A stretch of 64,000 bases of DNA from Erigeron canadensis (lineage: Eukaryota; Streptophyta; Magnoliopsida; Asterales; Asteraceae). The notes below the pieces were generated by a model. That model saw only the letters and a list, made by a program, of their open reading frames with translations, had not been told where the DNA came from and did no database searches. Shown in pieces: positions 1,034 to 64,000 of this stretch. Position numbers and translations under genes: made by a program. The DNA is taken from positions 1,426,001-1,490,000 of the forward strand of contig NC_057764.1 in the NCBI RefSeq assembly GCF_010389155.1, in the 5' to 3' direction. Each line of letters starts with the position of its first letter. Positions within the stretch are counted from its first letter, which is position 1.

Positions 1034-1038
1034 GATAG

Positions 1039-1346
1039 TGTTAGAAATCCAAAAATAGTGATAAATTATAATTTAAGTTAGTGGACTTTGTGATTGTTAA
1101 GACATGGTGAAATGATTTCTAAGATTGAGTGGCTAGGAGTGTCAATTAGCTTAATTGTAGATTTAGACTATAAATACCCTCAACTCCTTAGAAATCATAA
1201 GCCTTTTGATCCATTTTTACATACAACTTATTCCAGATCGTCTCTCTCTCTCTCCAGAAAATCACACACACTAAACACACCAAGAACACACACACTTGAA
1301 CCGCCATTGTTGAGATCGAATCAAGAACAGAAATCGTGTTATTACA
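1039..1346 (+). repeat. 5' LTR (308 bp)
   Basis: Starts TGTTAG and ends GTTATTACA, directly after TSD GATAG. A TATA-like TATAAATACC lies at about 1170. It contains a 47 bp stretch around a TC-repeat that is missing from the 3' LTR. Confidence 0.95.
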
Positions 1347-1348
1347 TT

Positions 1349-1360
1349 TGGTATCAGAGC
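1349..1360 (+). other. primer binding site, initiator tRNA-Met type
   Basis: TGGTATCAGAGC begins two bases after the 5' LTR. This is the usual plant Ty1/copia minus-strand primer site, complementary to the 3' end of initiator tRNA-Met. Confidence 0.93.
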
Positions 1361-1795
1361 ATAAAATCACTTTGATATCGATCCATAACTGATTTTGATC
1401 TCAATTTTCATCCAATTTCATATTAAAAACCGTTTCTCATACCGTCACTGTTTCATCATTTTTCACCAGAAAAATCACATAAAATCATCGTTTTTTGTTC
1501 ACCATTAGATTCCTGATAGTTTTAAACATAATTCTGTCAAGTTTCAAGTTCCAATTCGATCTAGAACTCGAAATTGAATTTTGAGTTTTTGGCGCTCAAA
1601 TTTCGGGATTTGATTCTATTGTGTTTTTAGCTGAATTTTGTTCAAGGATTTGTTGCGGATGTAATTACAAACGTTTTGCAAGTGGTTTCAGGTTCTAATT
1701 CCAAGTAAATAGAAAGATATTGAAGCTTTAAAAGTCATCAATGGAGTTGGTTCATACTGGTTTGATGAAGAAGACGATATCAGAACGATTCTCAC

Positions 1796-2590
1796 TAGGA
1801 CGATCCTCTACAGATCGTCTCAGTGCTTGAATTTTCATTCATTCATACTTTCTGTGTTGTGGCTTGTAGGACGATCCTCACAAGATCGTTCTAGCAAGTG
1901 TTGAGTGTTGGAAAGTGTTGGTTGTGGCTAACTAATCCTTTTTGGATTGGTTTTGGTCAAAATCAAAGTTAATACTTTGAAAATTATTGGCAGAAAACTA
2001 AGACGATCTTGCCAAGATCGTCTCAGTTACTTGACTCTAGGACGATCTTGATCAAGATCGTCTCAGTGTCTGTTGTAAGTTGGTGTGGTTTGATTGATAC
2101 TTTGAAGCTGTTGTGATTGGGAATCACACACTTCCTGGGTAACTGATCATTCTTGATTGGTTTTGCTCAAATTCATTCCTACCAATTCATAACTAAACTC
2201 TGTCCAAATTTTCTTAAAATACTTAAAAAATTTCTCAGGCTTACAAGACGATCTTATACAAGACCGTTTCATTTTATTCTTCAAATTTCCAAGACGATCT
2301 TCCTCAAGATCGTTTCATTTTCATTTCTTTCAGTTTCAAATTTCAACTTTCAATCACTTTCATTCAGTTTCAGTTTCCAATTCCAAAAGACAAAATCATC
2401 ATTCAATTTCACTTTTCATTCCATACTTAATCAAATTTCATCCAAGGTTCTTCAAGACGATCTTTCTTGAATCGTCTCATTCTTTTAAAAACCTAAGACG
2501 ATTTGTTTCAACTCATCTTACTTCTTTCTTCTTCTAGGACGATCTTCCAAAATGATCTTATCCTAGGACGATCTTCTCCAAGATCGTTTC
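1796..2590 (+). repeat. array of ten imperfect hairpins in the retrotransposon leader
   Basis: About ten copies of one inverted-repeat unit, half-site (A/G)GACGATCTT and its complement AAGATCGT(C/T)TC, lie at about 1798-1821, 1869-1892, 2001-2024, 2041-2062, 2245-2270, 2291-2316, 2453-2478, 2494-2520, 2535-2560 and 2564-2590. The copy at 2041-2062 is a perfect 22 bp palindrome. The copy at 2001-2023 has 11 bp arms around one base. Loops vary while both arms are largely kept. The array sits between the PBS and the gag start, so it would be in the 5' leader of the genomic RNA. Possible roles are packaging, dimerisation, translation control or DNA-level protein binding; none is shown. Confidence 0.9.
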
Positions 2591-2648
2591 AAATTTTGAT
2601 ATTTTCAACTTTCATTCTAATTCAAGTTCCAAATCAAATCTCTTTCAA

Positions 2649-5600
2649 ATGGCTTCTCGTGAAGCGTTGGCATTAGGTTCTGACACAAGACCTCCAGTTC
2701 TCTAACGTGGTTCTTATGGACTATGGAAAAAAAGATTTATGGATTATGTGGAATGTCAACCGAATGGTCACCTTCTTAAAGATTCCATACTTAATGGACT
2801 TGCAGTTCATCGCCATCCTACCACTGGTGCAATACTCACTCTTGATCTTTTGAATGTTGAACAAAAAGATCGAACAGCTGCAGATAACAGAGCTAGATCA
2901 TGCTTATACAAAGCACTGCCAGATGAAATCTATGGTTCTGTTGATTCTTATGACACAGCCAAGGAGATATGGGATGAGGTGGCAAGACAAATGGAAGGAT
3001 CTGACCTAACTTCAACAATTAGATTGACAAATGTGTTGACTGAGTTTGACAACTTCAGCAAATTGCCAAATGAATCTCTAGAGGCTGTCTACTGTAGATT
3101 CTGCAATGTCATAAATGAACTTAGGAAGAACAATGTCAAGAAATCAGAGATTGAGTTAAACATCAAATTCATCAAAGCTCTTGGTCCTGAGTGGGAAGAT
3201 TATGGAACTCAGATTAAGCAACATCAAAATCTGGCCAAGTTCTCCATCCATAATCTTCATGAATCCTTCAAACTCAATGAACATCAAGTCCTAAACAAAG
3301 CTTCATCAAACAAAATGCCAGAAGTTGTATCTTCTGATCCTTTGGCATTAATTGTTGAAAAGAAGGTTTCTGAAGCTCTTAAAAGGCAAATGGTAGTTGT
3401 CTCTTCGTCTGATGAGGAGGGAGATGATATGTTGGCTCCAAGAGATGGTGTTTCAGACGAATTATATCAAGCTCTTGCCGCATTTACCAAGCACTTCAAG
3501 AAAAAGTACTACAAAGCGAGGCCAACAAACAACAATCTCTGCACTTTTTCCACAAGTGCATTTCCCAAGAAGGAACACTATCATTCAAAGAATAATGGTC
3601 AAGGTGAATCAAGTGGATCCAAGCATGTGGAAAAGAAAGTTGAAGGTTATGACAAACAAGTTGTTGAGAAGGGTAAAGTTTCTGACAAAAAGTGCTACAA
3701 TTGTGGAAATCCTGGTCATTTTGCAATTGATTGCAAGCAACCTCGTAAGTGGAACTATGAGTACTACAAGCAGAAGATGTTATTGGCAAAGCAAGTGGAA
3801 GCCGGTCATGCATTGCTTGCTGAAGATGACAAATGGCTATTGCTCTCGGATGATGAATATGAAGATCTCTCTGCAAATGTGTGCTTCATGGCGAGGTTGG
3901 CCAAGGACAAAGCTTTTGAGGCTGAAAGCACTGATGATGAGCGCCCGGATGATGAGGTAAATCTACACTCTGCTTTTTCAATAGTTAAAGATAAAGAGTT
4001 GTTTGATTTAGCTTTATCAAATTTGACAACTCATATCACGTCTTTAACCAACAAAAATAAGAAGTTGAAAAATAGTATTTCATTTTCTAAAAGTGAATTT
4101 TCAAAACTCTTTGAAGAATATTCAAAATTACTTTTTGATTATGATACTATTAAACAAGATTTTCAAACTTACAAAGATCAAATGTTGGTTAAAGAATGTG
4201 AGTTGAATGCCTCTCCTGATTCTAAGTTATAACATAAATGTCACAATCTTGAAAAGACCATTCATGATCTTGAAAAAGCCAATCAAGATCTTGAAATTCA
4301 AAAGACCAATGAGTGGCTTCGAGCAAATGCTAGACAAATGGATGTTGATATTCTTAATAAAAAGCTTCAAGAATCCAAACCAAACAATGTTGACCTAGAA
4401 AGAAAGATTTCTGATTTAAATCATACTTGTTTTTTGAAAGGTGTTGAGATTGAAAATCTTAAAAACCAAATTGAGGAATTCAAAAAGAATATACTTTTCT
4501 ATCAAGAGAAGTTATATAAAGTTGAACAAAACCCTTTTTTGGATTTTACTGCCTATTTTAACAAGTCGAAAATTGACAAATCGGAACTTCTTCATGGGTT
4601 GGGATTTGAGAATATCACACCATTACAAAAGGCAAAAGACCAAATTGAACCTTTGTATGATGAAAAATTTCTTCGCCTTGGTATGGTACAACAATTTATT
4701 CGTCCACTGGATGACGAATTTGAGACTGATGATGTTGAGAAAATACCTCAAACTGAATTTTTGGTTAACTATGATGTTATAAATGCTTCCTGTAATTTTA
4801 AAGAATTTTCAATTTTCAAATTAGAAGAAATAGCATCAAATTTTCAAAACCAAGAGTCAATTAGTATTTTACCTAAACCTACTAAAATGTATGTTCCATC
4901 CACATTTTTGGAAAAACAAATAGAAGGTTTACAACAAAAGGTGAATTCTCAACAACAAGTCATTGATCATCTCAAGTCTCAAAATCAAAGTTCAGAGAAT
5001 GAATTAATTGATGTAGACACCAAGAAAGTTTGTGTGAATGTTTCTACTCAAACTTATCTAAGTGCTGAAGTAAACCATTCCACTCAGACTATTTGTGTTT
5101 CATCTACTGATTCCTCCACCCAAACCTTGACTGATTCTCTTGAGTGTTCATGTCAAACTGCTGTTACTATAGCTGATAATTATGTGCAATCTAATTTATC
5201 TAATGACGAACTTGCACATAGTTTAGTTTTGATATGGTACTACTATAGGTTTTTCACTTGTGATTCTTTTGAAGAGTTAGTTGTTCACCCTAAGCTTAGT
5301 TCTAGTATAGGTGTTGATACTTCTACTCTAATTTCTTGTGAAACCAAAGATGTGTCAGTTCAAGTTGATCTAATTCCTGAGACTACCCATAGTGTAAAGT
5401 TGGATACCAAGATTCCTGATTTTTCAAAAATCTCTCCGGTTGAACCTTTCACAAAAGATGATTTTGATAAATTCATGGAGGGAGAATATGCTTTTGATTC
5501 TGAAACTGAGAAAAAGATTGAATCTACCAAAATCAAAGTTGAATCAAAAGAGGAATCTCCAAAATTGTTTTCCAAATATCCAACTTCACATTATTCTAAG

Positions 5601-6441
5601 AAACAAGTTATTCCAAAACTTGTCAAGACTGAACCAAAGACTGTAAAAAAAAAAACCAAGAATCAATAAGTTAAAAACAAAGTGTCCTACCTCTGAAAAG
5701 CATGTCAAAACCAAACAAGTTGAAACCATTCCCAAAATCAAATACAACAAAGAGAAACTTCTAGAAATCAATTCAAATGTTTCTTCATCTAACTCTCAAT
5801 CTAGTTCATTACCTAAAGTATCTAAATCTAGCTCAGTTTTGCTAACTAGGGATGCTTCAAATGGTGCAACTAGGTATAGGGATAGATATGACTGGTTTTC
5901 TCATGATAAACCTAAGAAACAAGAAGTTTCCACACCTTCAAAAGAGTCTAAAAAGATAAAAGTGCTTCAAAACACTCGTTCTAATCTTCTTAGTGTCAAT
6001 CCAACAGGTGGAAAGAGCTTGATTAGTAAGTCTAAATGGGTAGCTAAGTCTTTAGTACCTAAGATCACTAAAGTTGATAAAAGGAAGAAAAGGCAAAGGA
6101 GAAAAGCAGGTAGAAAGAAGAAGCTTGTTTCTGATGTGTCAAACAATTTATCTTTTAAATCCTCTTTGAAAAACAATGTTAATGGTGCCAAGGCTAAGCC
6201 TTGTAATGTTGTAAACAATGTTAATTCTCGTGTGTATGGTTTGAATGGTGGTAGACATGTTACTTTTGATTCATATGTTAATATTCGTTGGTTTAATCCA
6301 AATGTGCTTGTTGATAATGTGCTTGTTAATGCCTATATTGATACTAAAGAATGTTTGTATGCATATCCTAAGTTATATACCCTGCCTGTTTTAACTAACC
6401 ACAAAGGACCCGTCTTCAAGTGGGTACCTAAAGTCGGTTAA
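2649..6441 (+). pseudogene. gag: gag with long coiled C-terminal extension, broken
   Basis: Retrotransposon capsid/nucleocapsid reading frame. The ATG at 2649 is chosen because it precedes the first gag-like residues; the frame meets a stop at 2703-2705 and resumes from 2739. A UBN2/copia-type Gag domain covers about 2710-3310 (GLWKKRFMDYVE, AKEIWDEV). A CX2CX4HX4C zinc knuckle lies at 3693-3734. After it comes a very long extension rich in Lys, Glu, Asn and Ser, with heptad-like coiled stretches around 3990-4560. The same frame is stopped at 4230-4232, then runs to 5667. A frameshift at an A-run (about 5645-5655) moves the coding sense to another frame, which reaches 6439 and ends with a WVPK motif typical of the Gag-protease junction in plant copia elements. 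The extension carries an STQT ladder at 5043-5159. Confidence 0.88.
5043..5159 (+). other. STQT motif ladder in the Gag extension (possible LC8 binding)
   Basis: In frame with gag, three exact STQT motifs have their TQT at 5046-5054, 5082-5090 and 5118-5126, spaced exactly 12 residues apart. A fourth, weaker SCQT follows at 5148-5159 and a distant SVQVD near 5355. TQT is the core motif bound by dynein light chain 8 (LC8/DYNLL), and multivalent LC8 ligands often carry several TQTs about 10-13 residues apart. Sirevirus Gag proteins have been reported to interact with LC8-family proteins. That this ladder binds LC8 is inference. Confidence 0.7.
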
Positions 6442-6451
6442 TTCTATTTGA

Positions 6452-9400
6452 TTGCAGGAAATAACCATCTGTGTTTGGATACTCGATTCCGAGTGTTCAA
6501 AACACATGACTGGCAATAAAACAATGCTCAAGAACTTTATCGAACGATTAATGGGAACTGTTCGATTTGGTAACAACAATTTCGCTCCTATCTTAGGCTA
6601 TGGTGATATTGAACGCAATGGAATTATCATTAAGAAAGTTCACTATGTTGAAGGATTAAGTCATAACTTGTTCAGTGTTGGACAATTCTGTGACAACAAT
6701 CTTCAAGTTCTTTTTCGACAATCTCTTTGCAAAGTTCAAACTCTAGATGGAGTTGACATTTTGTGTGGCGACCGTGATGATAACCTTTTTACCGTTAATC
6801 TCGATGATAATCAACCAACTGATAATATTTGTCTCATTTCGAAAGCTACATCAAAGAATTCTTAATTGTGGCATAGAAGGCTTTCTCACCTAAACTTTCC
6901 TACTATCAATACTTTGGTCAACAAGCATCTTGTTGAAGGCTTGCCAGACTATAAGTATGAAAGTGAGCATGTGTGTCCTTCTTCTGCTATTGGGAGGATT
7001 AAACGAGCTTCTCATAAACCCAAGAAATCTCCAAATTCATTAGCACCTCTTCATTTGCTTCACATGGATCTTTGTGGACCGATGAAAGTACAAAGCCAAA
7101 ATGGGAAGAAATACATCTTGGTTATTGTTGATGATTATTCAAGATATACTTGGGTCAAGTTTCTTGCCTCCAAAGATGAAACAACTCAAACTTTGATCGA
7201 TTTCATCACTTCTACTCAAGTAAATCTTCAACTTCCAGTCTGTTACATCCGCTCGGATAACGGAACTGATTTCAAAAATGCCGTGTTTGATGAATTTTGT
7301 AAATCCAAAGGCATTGCTCATCAATTCTCTACGGTTCGTACCCCACAACAAAACGGAGTCGTTGAAAGGAGAAATCGAACGCTAGTGGAAGCTGCAAGAA
7401 CAATGCTTGCTTATTCTAAGTTGCCTTCCAACATGTGGGCTGAAGCAGTTGACACTGCTTGTCACACTCAGAATCGGTCCATTATTAATCAGCGTTTTGA
7501 TAAGACTCCTTATGAGGTTGTTAACAAACGGAAACCCAACATCAACTATTTCCATATCTTTGGGTGTGTTTGTTATACTCTGAATGATCGGGAAAATCTT
7601 GGAAAGTTTGAGAAGAAAGGTGATGAAGGTTACTTTGTTGGTTATTCCAAGACATCGATTGCCTACCGAATCTACAATCGCCGAACAAATACGATTCAAG
7701 AAACAATGAATGTTTGGTTTGATGAGATGTCAGGCATGATCTTTGAGCAAGAAAGTTTGCTACCAACAAGTAATGATCCAAGTACTTCAAGTACTTCATC
7801 AAGAACTTCTACTTTAGCATCTAAATTCAAGAAGTTTCCAGCTCCAACAAGTGATGAGTTAGATATTCTTTTTGAAGAATTCTATAATTCTAAACCGATT
7901 CATGATGAAGAACCTCAAATCATCGTGGAACCAGTTTCAAACAATGATCCAGTTCCTGACAACCATCATGAATCATCATCAAGTTCTTCTGAGCAAAATG
8001 CTACTTCTTCAAGTAGTAGTTCTTCATCCTCTTCTAATGATTCTTCTTCTCAATCCTCTCCTGATAATTCTTTTCCAGTGAATGTTCAAGAACAACCTAC
8101 ACAATTTACCCAGACTACCAATCCGATAAACACTCCAAATGTATATGTGCCTCTTGATTTCGATCATCCATCCTACGAGGAAGCTGTTCTACAAAGCTAT
8201 GATTCCATCTATCAGCAAAACTCTAGTTTTAATGATGATGTTGATGTCAATCAACAAGATCCTCTTCCTCATGATCGCAAATGGTCATGTATGAGAAAAG
8301 ATCATCCTACAGATCAAATCATTGGAGATCCACAAGCCGGAGTAACTACTCGTACTTCAGTAAATGAGTGTCTTGTTGCACTTTCTCTTAGCAACATTGA
8401 ACCCAAAACTGTTTCTGAAGCTCTTCGAGATCCAGAATCGATTAAAGCTATGCAAGACGAACTCGCTCAGTTTGAAAGACTGAAAGTATGGAGATTAGTT
8501 CCAAATCCAAGAAAAGATGAACCTATTGGCACAAAATGGATTTTCAAGAACAAGAAGGATGAGAATGGAGTGGTAGTAGGAACAAAGCTCGACTAGTTGC
8601 AAAGGGTTATTGCCAACAACCTGGTGTTGATTTCGACGAAATTTTTGCTCCCGTTGCTAGAATGGAAGCCATTCGGATTTTCTTAGCTTATGTTGCATTC
8701 AGAAACTTCACTGTATTTCAAATGGATGTGAAGACAGCTTTCTAGAATGGTGATCTCAAAGAAGAAGTTTACGTTGAACAACCAGAAGGTTTTGTTGATC
8801 TCAAAAGACCAAACCATGTCTACAGGTTAGACAAGGCTCTCTACGGTCTTAAGCAAGCACCCCGAGCATGGTATGACTCCTTATCTACTTTCTTGATTAG
8901 AGGTGGCTTTACCAAAGGCACAATTGACCCTACCCTATTCATTCGTAAACAAGGTAAGCATGTTCTTCTTGTCCAAATATATGTTGATGACATTATCTTT
9001 GGGTCAACCAGTCAAACATTTTGCCGAAACTTTTCATCTCTAATGGTTAATCATTTTGAAATGAGCATGATTGGGGAAATGAACTACTTTTTGGGTCTTC
9101 AAATCAAACAACTACCAAATGGTATTTTCATATCACAAGGTAAGTATGTTCATGACAAGTTGAAAAAGTTTGATATGACTACTTGTTCTTCGATTTCAAC
9201 TCCAATGGTTGCTCGTACAAGTATTAATGCTGATAAAAATGGAAAACCATTTGACCAAAAGAGATATAGAAGTATGATTGGTTCATTGTTGTATCTTACA
9301 TCATCTCGCCCAGATATAATGTTTGCAACACGTATGTGTGCTAGGTATCAAGCTGCTCCAACTGATTTACATTTTTAAGCTGTGAAACGAATATTTCGTT

Positions 9401-9806
9401 ATCTGAAGGGTACACCCAATTTAGGTCTCTGGTATCCAAGGGATACTGGATTCAATTTAACTGCCTATTCAGATGCAGATCATGCAGGTTGTAAGCTTGA
9501 TCGCAAGAGCACTTCCGGTACTTTACAATTTTTGGGTGATAAAATTGTGAGTTGGTCTTCCAAGAAACAAAACTGTGTGTCACTATCAACAGCCGAAGCT
9601 GAATATGTGGCTGTGGCTAGTTGTTGTGCTCAAGTGTTATGGATGAAGACTCAGCTAACTGATTATGGTCTGAAATATGATCATATTCTCATCTATTGTG
9701 ACTCTCAAAGTGCCATTGCTATTGCAGTCAACTCAGTAAACCACTGGATGAGAAAAGGTTTAACTATCTTATCTCTAAGCTTGGCATGTTAAATCTTGAA
9801 CCTTAA
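6452..9806 (+). pseudogene. pol: pol (protease, integrase, RT, RNase H), broken
   Basis: Copia-type pol in domain order. Protease from about 6470: the active-site triad reads Asp-Ser-Glu at 6485-6493 where Asp-Ser-Gly/Thr-Gly is expected, so it is probably dead. Integrase from 6866: the zinc motif is WHRRLSHLN with CPSS where CPSC is expected (Ser codon at 6983-6985); the catalytic Asp at 7067-7069, SDNGTDF and NGVVERRNRT are present. RT follows, with YVDD intact at 8980-8991. RNase H shows SDADHAG, STAEAEY and CDSQSAI. Lesions: stop 6863-6865, a 1-base frameshift near 8578, stop TAG 8743-8745, stop 9376-9378. Near 9741 the sequence jumps from the RNase H CDSQSAI block to the usual pol C-terminus (GMLNLEP, stop 9804-9806) in another frame, losing a conserved His-containing stretch. 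Confidence 0.93.
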
Positions 9807-12584
9807 CTTATTTTGTTCTTGATACATTCTTGAAAAACAAAATACAAAACTTGAAAAGACAAAAATCAAATATAAAAATATAAAATTTTGGAAAAAATAA
9901 CAAAAAGATTTTTTTTTCTTTTATATCTTAGTGGCTTACATATACTCAGTATGTAACCCATGCTTTAACGATTTATTTATTTCAAAATGGCTTATACATA
10001 CTCTGTGTATAACCCGTTCTTAAAAATTTTATTTATTTTCAAAAGAATTATTTTTCTTTTCAAATATTTTGTTACTCTCAATTGTTGATATGAGAAGCGA
10101 AGGATTGAACGCCGTTGTGTACTCCCTAGTTGTCTCATCTTGAACAATTGATTGAGTTAAATTTGTGCTTAAATGTTTTATTTGCATCCAACTTGTTGAT
10201 GTAAGATGCGAATGATTGAACGCCTTTGTTTACTCCCTAGTAGTCTTACTATGAACATTGTTGTTGACGCAAAACTTTGTGTTTCTTAAAATTTTGTTCA
10301 GTTTTAGACTCTCAAATTTTTTTGTATATATCACAACAAAGATTTTACTCTAGTTGACTTCACAAAAACCAATTTTTGCTCTACCTTTCTATGGAAATTT
10401 TTTAAAGGGGAGTTTGTGATTTCAAATAGTTCAAAACTTCAAATGTGTTTTCAAATCATTTTCTTATACACATTTGATGATTTTCAAAAGATTTTCTCCA
10501 AAGGAAGTTCGGTGTTTAGTTTGCACATGAGCGACTAGTTTTTCTCAAAATTTACTCCATGGACTTCATCATCACTGATGAGTTCTAACCCCGGAGTATT
10601 CACTTCTTTCATTAGATAGTGAGGGTATTTTGAGTAATGATGATTTCGTGCAACTAGGATGGAGGGAGTAAAGTCAAAAAGTGAGAGGTTACGGTGATAT
10701 GTTGCGAGAAAAGGGTTAAAAGAATTGATACCCTTCTCTAAAATTCTCAAATCGCCGGGTAAAACACATTTCTATCGGATGTTATTTGTTGATATCTCGA
10801 TATTGAAGAAGCCTTCATGGACCCAGTGAAGCGATGCACATCTTTACCCAACCACTCAAGTGTTTCTTAACAAATGCTTGTTTTATTTCTCACGGAGATT
10901 TTCTCATTTCTATTAACTCTTCATTTGGAAGATGTTGATATTGAAAAAGGGTGACACTCTGCTCCAGTCCCCGACTTCATTTGTTCACTTCGTGTCTAGA
11001 GCTATCTTGATTAATCATTAATTTGATCCTTATTCATTATCTTAAGACACATTTGAGTCATATCTTTGTGATATTATTGCATATCTATGTGATATAGCCG
11101 GAACATTTGTAGTGATATCTTAATTGATATTCCACAATGATCAAATGGAAATCCTACCAATGCTAACATATTTTCCAACATTGAACGTAGGTCTCATAAT
11201 TACATTTATGTGATTATTGAGTGAACGAGAAGTCTATCAGTGACCTCGGATGTTTCCTAAAAAGTCTTTAAGGATAATAGATTGTGGTTATTGAACGCCT
11301 TAGGTGACACTGACCATGATCTCTATTCTTTGAACCAATCTCGTAGTTGACAAGGTACAAGACCGAACTATATTAGAAAATTGCTTTATGCATAATTCAA
11401 TGATACATAGGAAATCCAAAAATGTCATACAATTCTTTCGGTCATTTCATTAATCCTTTTGGTTTTTGAACATGTTAACGGATCATCCTTATCCGGTTTT
11501 TCCATTTCTCATCTCAAAAACACAAAAACCACCAATATCATACTATAACATTTGTATCAACAACTTCAACCTTACATTTTAGTTACCCTTAGGATTCTTT
11601 GGGTTAGGACTATTGAATTGGGTTGATGTGCTGTTGTTTGATACTTCTCCATGCAATTCTAGTTTTAAATTGTGATATTTTCTTTTCGCATTCGATCAAT
11701 CAATGTTTGCATAATGACATTGGTTCCCAACTTTGTCATTATGAGGGGGAGAAAAAGATTATGATTGATTGAGAAAGAAAATCTTTGAGCTTGATTTGTG
11801 CAAACATGGAGTTAGTAAAAAGGTTGTAGTGAGTGTATGGAGGTTACGGATAAAAGATAAGAGAGAATATTTTATGGGATTGATGGGAAAACTTGCAATT
11901 AATGGAATTATTGAGTTCTTGACTTGGAAAAAGGATAATTACAAAGATAAGGATATGATGTTCAAAGATGCTCCAAAATGCTTACACTCATGAATTGAAG
12001 GGGAGCATGATTAATTCAAGTTTTGTTCAAAAAAGTTTACTCTCCAAAGTGCTTAAGTCAAAATGACAAAGATCAAAGCTACAAAGGTTGAAAGATTGAT
12101 TGGAAGATTCAAGACAAAGAAGTAAAACTTCGAAAGAGTCTTCATCAACACATTTCATTCAAGATCTTCAAAGTCATATAATAATACTTGATCAAGAAGC
12201 TTCAATGCATATATCAAGGGGGAGAGTTTAAGTTTTTGATACTTCATTCCATGGAAACAAAATTTCATTCAACAATCGAAGATTGAAGAACCAAAGCCAA
12301 ATTTATACCTTCCGCACTTCAAAAGACAACTCTGATTCATGGTTCAACAATTTTCAAAGATTCTAGACTCATTCATTTTATGTTTTGTTCAAAAAGAACA
12401 TTGAGAATTTCATCATGTTTTAACTACAAGAAGTCCAAGACCAAGATTGATTCAAGTTCTCCAGAGACAATGAGAAAGCTTTGAAGACTTGATTCATCAC
12501 ACCAATTGTCTTCACCACCGGGCTCATCAACTTTATTCCTACAAGACAAGATAACACGTACTTCATTCATTACAATATATCACT
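9807..12584 (+). other. long non-coding 3' region of the copia element
   Basis: No convincing protein, including no envelope-like ORF. Two diverged direct repeats are seen: about 9931-9970 with 9987-10020 (sharing TGGCTTA and ACATACTC), and about 10072-10180 with 10185-10275 (sharing GATTGAACGCC and TACTCCCTAG). PPT-like AGGGG(G)AG motifs occur near 11750, 12000 and 12220, ahead of the real polypurine tract. Multiple PPT-like motifs are a feature described for Sireviruses. Confidence 0.7.
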
Positions 12585-12595
12585 AAGGGGGAGAA
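12585..12595 (+). other. polypurine tract
   Basis: AAGGGGGAGAA immediately precedes the 3' LTR and is the expected plus-strand primer site. Confidence 0.9.
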
Positions 12596-12856
12596 TGTTA
12601 GAAATCCAAAAATAGTGATAAATTATAATTTAAGTTATTGGACTTTGTGATTGTTAAGACATGATGAAATGATTTCTAAGATTGAGGGGCTAGGAGTGTC
12701 AATTAGCTTAATTGTAGATTTAGACTATAAATACCCTCAACTCCTTAGAAATCATAAGCCTCTCCAGAAAATCACACACACTAAACACACCAAGAACACA
12801 CACACTTGAACCGCCATTGTTGAGATCGAATCAAGAACAAAAATCGTGTTATTACA
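12596..12856 (+). repeat. 3' LTR (261 bp, 47 bp shorter than the 5' LTR)
   Basis: Begins TGTTAG, ends ATTACA, followed by TSD GATAG at 12857-12861. It differs from the 5' LTR by four substitutions and lacks the 47 bp between the GAAATCATAAGCC block and the TCTCCAGAAAA block. Confidence 0.95.
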
Positions 12857-12861
12857 GATAG

Positions 12862-14034: not shown

Positions 14035-14074
<40 letters not shown>

Positions 14075-14267
14075 CGGCTATATTCATATATATGTATATA
14101 GATCCGTTTTCTTTTTCTTACTTATACACATAGATCTGAAAAACGTCATCCTTGATTATATAGATTGGTTTTGTATATTTATATATGTATATAAATCCGG
14201 GATTTATACAAAAATATATATATAATTCGGTTTTCTTCTTTTTCCTCCTCTCAAAAACCGTAACGTG

Positions 14268-20105: not shown

Positions 20106-20174
<69 letters not shown>

Positions 20175-20711
20175 CTTGTTTTGTTTGCATCATTTAGGGC
20201 TTTTTTTGTTCAAAAAGGAAAAAGAAGAGATAAAGCATAAAAGAAAAGAGGAAGGCAGGTATGGGTTTAAAAGACTAATTAAAGTGCTCTTACGTGAGGG
20301 GCACATGATATGTTTTAATGGAATTAAATAGACGGAATGAGTTATAGGGATGAAACTTGCAACAAAATTATGTAGTTTGGACCAATTTAACGAAAATTTT
20401 TGAAAAGGGATGTAAACCACAAAAACGGGTAAATCACATAGACGAATCTTGCAATTAAATCTTTTCAGAAATTGATGACCCTGCCTAAGAGTCAAATCGC
20501 AACAATCATCCGTGTGAAAAATGAAAAACGTCCCTAACGCCCACAAGAGAATTAAAGATTCTGTTTTTTTTTCTTAAATATAAGTTGTTACATTAATGCA
20601 AATTAATCACAAATAAAGATCACAATTAACATGTTGAGTGTACTCTTCATTAACCCACAATCTATATAACATATCTGTATTTGAAGATTATATAGATGTA
20701 ATTAAGTTGAG
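19833..20711. other. non-coding stretch downstream of SEO copy 1, with a long (AT)n run
   Basis: An uninterrupted AT dinucleotide run of about 31 repeats spans roughly 20109-20170. The minus-strand open frame at 20190-20546 has no recognisable domain and I treat it as chance. The stretch ends at the stop codon of the SEO gene and contains its 3' UTR. Confidence 0.6.
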
Positions 20712-49395: not shown

Positions 49396-49845
49396 TGTAA
49401 CACCCCAACAAGGCGGAATAATGGGATATCACAAGAAAAGCACAACACGACATGGAAATTAAGTAAAGCCAAACTAAATGCATAAAAGGATTGGACAATC
49501 CGTTCAAATCATTCAATTACAAATACCGGATAAAGAAATAATGCATAAGGAGCACGCCCATCAAACGTTTACAAAATAATGGTTCAAAAGATGGTAAATG
49601 ATTCTAAGCATAACCCATAAACGGGAACTACGAATCACGGATCCGAGAAATAGTCCAAGTCCATCCTAGCATGCAAACAATCAAGCAATCATCCAATACG
49701 TCTCTGGTTTACCTGTTCACCTGAAAAGTGTATTAAAACATGTCAACATAAAGTTGGTGAGTTCGTAGGTTTTTGTAACAAAAATCAAGTGTTAGGATAG
49801 CAACTGTTAACGATATACGAAGATTAATAACGTTCAATAACGTGG

Positions 49846-50190
49846 GCTCAACAACCCATAACGTGGATATAGAGATACCCATAACGTGGATATAAAGATA
49901 CCCATAACGTAGATATAGAGATACCCATAACGTGGATATAGAGATACCCATAACGTGGATTCAACAATCTATAACGTGAGTATAAAGATACCCATAACGT
50001 GGATATAGAGATACCCATAACGTGGATATAGAGATACCCATAACGTAGATTCAACAATCCATAACGTAAGTATAAAGATAACCATAACGTGGATATAGAG
50101 ATAACCATAACGTGGATATAGAAATACCCATAACGTGGATTCAACAATCCATAACGTGAGTATAAAGATACCCATAACGTGGATATGCAT
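49846..50190. repeat. 23 bp minisatellite in the gypsy LTR
   Basis: About 14 units of CCCATAACGTGGATATAGAGATA and variants (written here in parts: CCCATAACGTGG + ATATAGAGATA), including TCAACAATC- and GAGTATAAAG-type units in a higher-order pattern. The open frames here are artefacts of the 23 bp period. Confidence 0.9.
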
Positions 50191-50544
50191 ACACATAATA
50201 AACGTTTCAATACGCTACCACATAACGTTATTCATCACATATAAACTTTCAATAACAAGTATCACAAGCAAGCAAATAGGTAACTAACATCTCGTTTCAT
50301 ATCATAATCAATCGTATCAACCGACAAGCATTTAACAAACGAGTACACTTTCCACCCTAAATAAAGTAAATGTAGGGGCTACGAAACTCGCCTTGGCCTT
50401 AAGCGTTTGTAGAAGGTGACTAAGCGGGTAACTGGGGAGCACAACGGTCACAAACCTATTATATCAACATTAAATCATCACATTATAGCTTACGTTACTT
50501 TACAAGTCATCCTAGACTAAACCAAGACTTTACATAATGGTTTT

Positions 50545-63282: not shown

Positions 63283-64000
63283 ATGGCAGCAGACAATGGA
63301 AACTTTCAAGTTCCAAGTGTTCCAAAGTTCGATGGCGATTACGAACATTGGAGCCTCCTAATGAAGACACTGTTGCGATCGAAAGAATATTGGGTTGTGA
63401 TTGACCCAGGGTATGATGAACCTCGTGAGGGGGTGCAATTCACGGCTGCCCAACAAGCCCAACTAGAGAGCATGCGACTTAAAGATTTGAAAGCACAAAA
63501 TTATCTGTTTCAGTCCATCGACAAACAGATAATTAAAACAATGGCACACAAAAAGACTGCAAAGCAAATCTGGGATGCTATGAAAAACAAGTACCAAGGA
63601 AATGCTCGAGTGAAGAAAGCTCAGTTACAGCGGATACGAAGGGAGTTTGAAACCCTGGAGATGAAAGAAGGTGAGAACGTCACATAATACTTTGGTCGGG
63701 TAATGATGGTGGCGAATGAGATGAGAAACTATGGCGAAGAAATGTCTGATGTCAAGGTGGTGGAGAAGATTCTCAGAACTCTAACTCATAATTTCAATTT
63801 TGTTGTATGTTCGATCGAAGAATCTAATGACATAGACACCATGACGGTGGATGAGCTCCAAAGCTCATTGCTTGTGCATGAACAGAAACTTTCTCGAAAA
63901 ACCGGTGATGATCAAGTGTTAAAAACCGAACTTGAATCATCAGGTGGACGGGGACAAGGGCGAGGAAGAGGATCTCCTAACAGAGGAAGAGGTCGTGGCC
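63283..64000 (+). pseudogene. gag: copia gag, runs off the window, one in-frame stop
   Basis: Capsid protein of a Ty1/copia element unrelated to the large one at 1039. ATG 63283 follows the PBS by ~37 bp, giving MAADNGNFQVPSVPKFDGDY. The DUF4219/UBN2 Gag region shows HWSLLMKTLLRSKEYW, TAKQIWDAMKNKYQGNARV and, past the stop, YFGRVMMVANEMRNYGE and DELQSSLLVHEQKLSR. An in-frame TAA at 63685-63687 breaks it; sense resumes directly in the same frame to the window end, where an Arg/Gly-rich stretch begins. The zinc knuckle would lie beyond the window. Confidence 0.85.

Follow-up and report, generated by a model that had tools for sequence, protein, structure and literature searches.

LC8 is dimeric and holds two chains together by gripping one motif of each. 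That the Gag of Sireviruses interacts with LC8 is already known and has been in print since 2005, reportedly through the work of Havecker, Gao and Voytas. The larger Gag of Sireviruses interacts with the plant LC8 family (PMC2829016), a point that the original prediction for the present locus had given correctly, and Sireviruses are described as interacting with LC8-type proteins (PMC1852403). LC8 was conserved in all 24 eukaryotes surveyed, higher plants included, and flowering plants have LC8 without dynein (PMC2239267). In the literature searched (most subscription papers lie outside its coverage) we found no description of TQT motifs or of a motif ladder in a retrotransposon Gag.

Besides the Gag of Sireviruses, the closest described systems are Nup159, ASCIZ and the Gag of foamy virus. 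Nup159 of yeast has five LC8 sites in a row beside a coiled coil and forms a stiff rod of stacked LC8 (PMC12017986, PMC5963919). The ladder described here is similar in its arrangement, but in Nup159 the sites lie N-terminal of the coil (PMC3995210), whereas the Gag ladder is situated C-terminal of a predicted helix; of the two, Nup159 is the one with demonstrated LC8 binding. ASCIZ also resembles it in that its disordered tail carries numerous TQT-type motifs of differing strength (PMC5963919). In the fly protein, however, the gaps range from 3 to 30 residues (PMC10046861), whereas those of the Gag ladder, with motifs taken as 8 residues long, are all 3–4. Foamy virus is an example of LC8 binding by the Gag of a retroelement. 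A coiled-coil motif is required for this interaction, through which capsids travel to the centrosome (PMC3705263), whereas flowering plants lack dynein.

The element and its Gag

The window, i.e. the whole stretch of 64,000 nt that was analysed, contains an element spanning positions 1034–12861 with matching 5-base GATAG target duplications at both ends (Table 1). It is a Ty1/copia LTR retrotransposon: LTRs, target-site duplication, primer binding site and polypurine tract are present, and the integrase precedes the reverse transcriptase. The primer binding site, TGGTATCAGAGC, is one that we take to be of the initiator-Met tRNA type. The two LTRs (308 versus 261 nt) differ by 47 nt in length and show four mismatches over two aligned blocks of 166 and 97 nt, which overlap by 2 nt.

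Sireviruses are defined by an enlarged Gag in which a CCHC knuckle lies centrally and a coiled coil follows downstream (PMC2829016). The element has an enlarged Gag, a CCHC knuckle found by Pfam and a downstream coil in the form of predicted helices. The LTRs, by contrast, are not long: the Sirevirus LTR measures 1.28 kb on average (PMC2829016), an average and not a strict criterion, against 308 and 261 nt here. Within the 2.8 kb between pol and the 3' LTR (9793–12595) there is no frame of at least 80 aa and so no envelope-like gene is visible in the window copy; such a gene is an optional Sirevirus trait.

The Gag of the window copy is broken twice, by an in-frame stop between core and extension and by a frame change near 5647–5666. 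Its C-terminus, FKWVPKVG, is like those of two related proteins described below (WVPRKP in P0002 and WVPKPT in P0003).

Table 1. Positions in the window of the retrotransposon, its Gag parts and the motif sites
Feature	Position	Strand	Remark
Target-site duplication GATAG, left copy	1034..1038	+	right copy 12857–12861
5' LTR, 308 nt, TG...CA	1039..1346	+	
Primer binding site	1349..1360	+	sequence TGGTATCAGAGC
Gag core frame: Retrotran_gag_2 and one CCHC zinc knuckle	2706..4229	+	Pfam, E 1.8e-12 and 5.5e-7
In-frame stop breaking Gag of the window copy	4230..4232	+	
Gag extension, open frame, 478 aa	4233–5666		carries the STQT ladder
First coil, predicted helices, residues 2–98	4236..4526	+	AlphaFold2, 10-residue block means 48–89
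Second coil, predicted helix, residues 223–255, directly before the ladder	4899..4997	+	block means 61–86 (221–250), 40 (251–260)
Rung 1, VNVSTQTY	5034..5057	+	rule score 4.5
Rung 2, VNHSTQTI	5070..5093	+	rule score 4.5
Rung 3, TDSSTQTL	5106..5129	+	rule score 3.5
Rung 4, LECSCQTA, weak	5139..5162	+	rule score 3.0
Rung 5, ADNYVQSN, weak	5172..5195	+	rule score 2.0; Q codon 5187
Separate sixth site, KDVSVQVD	5346..5369	+	rule score 5.75, highest; Q codon 5361
Remainder of Gag, another frame, end ...FKWVPKVG and stop	5647..6441	+	frame broken upstream
pol pieces Pol_BBD, gag_pre-integrs, rve, SH3_retrovirus, RVT_2	6452..9375	+	
Polypurine tract AAGGGGGAGAA	12585..12595	+	
3' LTR, 261 nt	12596..12856	+	

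Motif ladder and predicted structure

Three STQT motifs (5043–5054, 5079–5090 and 5115–5126) are followed by an SCQT (5148–5159) at spacings of 36, 36 and 33 nt, all in the frame 4233–5666, as the original prediction had stated. While these four sites were correctly recognized, a fifth rung, ADNYVQSN, and a separate sixth site, KDVSVQVD, had been missed. Rungs 1 to 5 are spaced by 12, 12, 11 and 11 residues, which leaves gaps of 4, 4, 3 and 3 residues if the motifs are counted as 8 residues; the sixth site is situated 58 residues beyond rung 5. Outside the ladder, STQT or TTQT is found only at 7181 and 26012 in the six frames of the window. The only glutamines within residues 262–400 of the extension are the six anchor glutamines.

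The sites were scored by simple rules composed from the wording of PMC6607443, which are not LC8Pred, taking a polar residue at -4, a large residue at -3 and Pro, Asp or Glu at +2 as favourable flanks. Hydrophobic residues at +2 are poorly accommodated by LC8 (PMC6607443), and the three STQT rungs of the window copy have Tyr, Ile and Leu there, thus failing the +2 rule. KDVSVQVD fits the flank rules and is the best fit to the published LC8 rules among the six sites. The rule scan of the Gag core frame of the window gave no accepted anchor. In the integrase frame, inside the rve domain, KDETTQTL scores 4.25, which is within the range of the rungs, and given this site TQT by itself is not specific.

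Shuffling was used to assess how readily such an array arises. At least three STQT were obtained in none of 200,000 shuffles of the 478-aa frame; for at least three TQT the figure was 54 of 200,000 with the whole frame and 17 of 200,000 when only the local 81 residues were shuffled. Five consecutive anchors of the class [TVIC]Q[TSV] at a spacing of 11–13 did not appear in any of 100,000 shuffles of the whole frame or of 300,000 shuffles of the local stretch; this wider class was picked after the sequence had been seen, the TQT core was not. Five sites of the extension score at least 3, which was equalled in 44 of 20,000 shuffles.

The 81 residues of the ladder region contain 14% T and 17% S and have an entropy of 3.57 bits (4.01 for the whole frame); this stretch, part of an extension that had been described as low-complexity, is therefore not strongly so. 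We compared it with 120 stretches from the viral collection and on that basis rejected Thr-rich low complexity as the sole cause of the array. At least 490 matches with three TQT are listed for that collection, 429 of which are open in the TQT frame, and among those 429 the median is 49% T and an entropy of 2.06 bits. A recent tandem duplication of the DNA was rejected as well: no array was detected by Tandem Repeats Finder, and the three 36-nt units have dissimilar flanks, with just 8, 8 and 7 matching positions out of 24.

The extension was modelled with AlphaFold2 from a six-row alignment. The model is poor overall (mean pLDDT 43.6), with helices predicted at residues 2–47, 52–98 and 223–255. 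The last of these lies just before the ladder. Directly downstream of this helix the block means of the pLDDT are 22–35 across residues 261–320. A low-confidence helix is drawn at residues 298–318; it covers rungs 4 and 5, whereas a ligand of LC8 should have an extended form there. The ladder is predicted to be largely disordered beside a helix, which would fit an LC8 client and is no proof of one.

Copies of the family and related Gags

Searching the 426-Mb assembly of the host with the extension gave 89 scored copies (the window included) out of 2429 first-look candidates, and all 88 other copies were fetched and examined (L135–L222). The anchor of rung 1 is TQT in 78 of the 88, as is that of rung 2. 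Stops at the Q account for some of the lost anchors, five of them at rung 2. For rung 3 we found TQT (60/88) or TQI (18/88), for rung 4 CQT (52/88) or CQN (27/88), and for rung 5 VQS (65/88) or VQT (14/88), with Asp at +2 in 86/88. The sixth site reads VQV in 80/88 copies, 59/88 having the exact 8-mer KDVSVQVD. Accepted anchors occupy at least five of the six sites in 66 of the 88 copies; 18 copies have four such sites, 3 copies three and 1 copy two. The spacing, in a scan that additionally accepted Asn and Ile after the Q, is 12-12-11-11 in 40/88 copies, while 14 have 12-12-11-12; in the remaining 34 at least one rung is lacking or the spacing differs. As to intact relatives, with which the ladder was to be compared according to the original prediction, the close family keeps TQT: all 31 copies that are stop-free in the fetched stretch have at least two TQT and 16 of them have three.

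The motifs of these copies are often better than those of the window copy. The rule score exceeds that of the window copy at rung 1 in 47/88, at rung 2 in 68/88 and at rung 5 in 77/88 copies, and the median score is 5.5 at rungs 1 and 2 (79 and 80 copies with an accepted anchor). The window form of rung 1, VNVSTQTY, is the commonest single form (21/88), MDASTQTD is present in 16 copies and MDVSTQTD in 10, and Asp stands at +2 of rung 1 in 41/88. Rung 2 is VDHSTQTT in 58/88 and rung 5 ADDYVQSD in 53/88 copies. In MDASTQTD, MDVSTQTD, VDHSTQTT and ADDYVQSD the favoured Asp occupies position -4, position +2 or both. Judged by these sequences, the window copy looks like a weakened version of the family ladder.

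Clusters of SQ and TQ are phosphorylation sites of ATM/ATR-type kinases, and the TQ steps could serve such kinases instead of docking; two SQ and three TQ indeed fall within residues 239–297. Rungs 4 to 6, however, have CQ, VQ and VQ, which are not kinase sites and yet are kept at the same spacing (rungs 4 and 5) or in nearly all copies (80/88, sixth site), so that we regard a kinase target as very improbable. Another alternative is that there is one strong dock, namely KDVSVQVD together with rung 1 in its forms MDASTQTD and MDVSTQTD, and that the other rungs are too weak to contribute. The top rule score of KDVSVQVD, its conserved VQV and the hydrophobic +2 residues at rungs 1–3 of the window copy speak for this. 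We nevertheless think it unlikely, given the high median scores of rungs 1 and 2 in the family and the reports that weak LC8 sites near others bind through multivalency (PMC6607443; PMC12057147).

Protein searches yielded only the relatives P0001–P0005. P0001 is 81% identical and stops short of the ladder; P0002 and P0003 span its place and are without it. The alignment pairs the STQ of rung 1 with STP in P0002, and the Q of rung 2 faces a Q of the same protein. A protein search with residues 222–478 found none at E 0.01, and a search of the PDB sequences with the ladder gave no match.

For the sister family, represented by P0002, 64 copies were scored in the host genome out of 3009 first-look candidates, and 52 were examined (12 loci and 40 fetched copies). 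The following counts cover these 52 copies, the 50 of them in which the coil end could be located or, where the first-rung place is needed, the 43 in which that place could be located as well; because the copies are related to one another, they do not represent independent observations. Within 75 residues past the second coil none of 50 copies has TQT, i.e. there are no TQT repeats at the place of the ladder. The same place has STQ in 21/50 (CSTQS, CSTQF, YSTQS) and STP in 22/50. A Q exactly 12 residues past the first-rung place is present in 37/43 copies, mostly as AVQGE or VLQDD, and an accepted anchor is found at either of the two places in 19/43 and at both in 1. Among the sequences examined the full ladder is confined to one family; a two-place trace with a 12-residue period may be older than the full ladder. 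Twelve of the 52 sister copies have FTQTD ahead of the first coil, often as SSREVQVFTQTD (L261–L274), and it also occurs in P0005; this may be a second candidate LC8 site elsewhere in Gag.

Copia-type reverse transcriptase was also observed in genome records titled as bacteria (L121–L126), most likely through contamination of bacterial assemblies with plant or other eukaryotic DNA. Four of these six copia-like loci were inspected (L121, L122, L124 and L125), and only L122 has a separate long Gag frame; this distant relative comprises 868 residues, ends with HWVPKCL and shows no accepted anchor. Viral contigs searched with the extension, the alignment and the reverse transcriptase piece gave nothing useful.

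Selection, docking and alternatives

The evidence for selection on the ladder is mixed. Family copies are 7.6% apart at the median. Over all 3916 pairs pN/pS is 0.49 for the three STQT versus 0.84 for the ladder between the anchors, and for pairs more than 10% apart the values are 0.39 versus 0.79. It is as low as 0.05 over the six anchor glutamines (six codons), 0.82 and thus like the flanks over all 18 anchor codons, 1.60 over the eight codons of KDVSVQVD and 0.23 in the first coil. Conservation of Q, T and S was computed without stops and gaps. The anchor glutamines agree with the window in 96–100% of copies compared with a mean of 84% for the 24 other glutamines of the frame (p 0.03), whereas the anchor threonines are conserved like other threonines (0.90 versus 0.89, p 0.53) and the anchor serines are not significantly better conserved (p 0.58). 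The protein-level agreement of the STQT codons was discarded as evidence for selection, being circular.

Synonymous divergence in the ladder outside the anchors is 0.09 for all pairs and 0.12 for pairs more than 10% apart, below the 0.16 and 0.28 of residues 1–99; the histories of the parts may therefore differ. Both the ladder and residues 326–371 reach at most about half the synonymous divergence of the coils (residues 1–99 and 223–255). This suggests that the family copies exchanged, or recently shared, the ladder segment and residues 326–371.

The low constraint between the anchors and the small distances between the copies are what one would see if an S/T-rich, fast-changing linker had gained STQT-like words by chance and young relatives had inherited them without any function. 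The unremarkable conservation of the anchor threonines and the lack of TQT here in the sister family agree with that, as do proteins of the viral collection that have three TQT at the same spacing, in hosts that may or may not have LC8. The shuffling results do not, and neither does the fact that all six glutamines of residues 262–400 stand in an LC8-type context and are well conserved. Furthermore, the viral matches consist to one half of threonine (among the matches listed) versus 14% here, and the Q 12 residues past the first-rung place recurs in the sister family. Chance combined with shared descent is on balance unlikely, though it is the alternative to which we give the most weight.

The best explanation in our opinion, and a reasonably probable one, is that the ladder is a candidate multivalent LC8 docking segment of a Sirevirus-type Gag. 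From the motifs, their spacing and their conservation in the family we infer LC8 binding, its stoichiometry and the role of the ladder. In the host genome there are 12 exon matches to PF01221 (dynein light chain), all flagged above the cut-off, though two only in combination with their neighbours, compared with none in the 14 control genomes. The idea of an LC8 docking ladder, as put forward in the original prediction, thus gains from the family anchors, the predicted disorder, the host LC8-family exons and the published interaction of Sirevirus Gag with LC8; the sister family without TQT and the hydrophobic +2 residues of the window copy count against it. So do the weak anchors of rungs 4 and 5, the ordinary conservation of the anchor threonines and serines, the pN/pS values over all anchors and over KDVSVQVD, the low-confidence helix across rungs 4 and 5, the rung-like score of KDETTQTL and the lack of a ladder in L122. 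The parallel in-register zip that went with this idea is not assured, because the rungs are separated by 3–4 residues, outside the 6–9 residues at which ASCIZ yielded homogeneous complexes; heterogeneous binding was tied there to gaps of 3, 30 and 41, but not to those of 6 and 9 (PMC10046861).

In family members with an unbroken Gag, each plant LC8 dimer would clasp the same motif of two Gag chains. Acting together, several weak sites could join Gag chains into dimers or into a short rod studded with LC8. If the rungs bind, cross-linking of Gag is likely; it may help particle assembly or connect Gag with a host complex that contains LC8. Transport by dynein is improbable, as flowering plants are without this motor. 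Since higher plants have LC8 but no dynein and the host has its PF01221 exons, a dimer-clamp role in assembly is likelier than motor transport. More tentatively, and with considerable doubt, one may suppose that the five-rung ladder and the sixth site evolved so that LC8 dimers of the host serve as clamps and build a rod on Gag, and that related families of this genome dock elsewhere (through the degenerate pair 12 residues apart behind the second coil, or through FTQTD ahead of the first), the sites turning over quickly between Gag families while docking is kept. Nothing that we found explains the use of LC8 to a retrotransposon in a dynein-free host, and a regular array kept by a family allows a site-by-site test. 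If docking holds true, the ladder would offer a naturally occurring multivalent client of LC8 whose gaps are uniformly short, for comparison with Nup159 and ASCIZ.

Apart from the element, the window contains a second, very distant copia-type gag fragment at 63484–63918 (19% identity, E 1.6e-7, one stop). A pair of dispersed repeats outside the element occurs in the same order at 20619–22472/40806–42552 and 24428–25064/42597–43245 and is 78–89% identical. In addition, there is a perfect self-complementary run of 68 nt at 20106–20173, which also matches 14036–14100, and a dense local array of similar units, about 78–100% identical, at 49834–50254.
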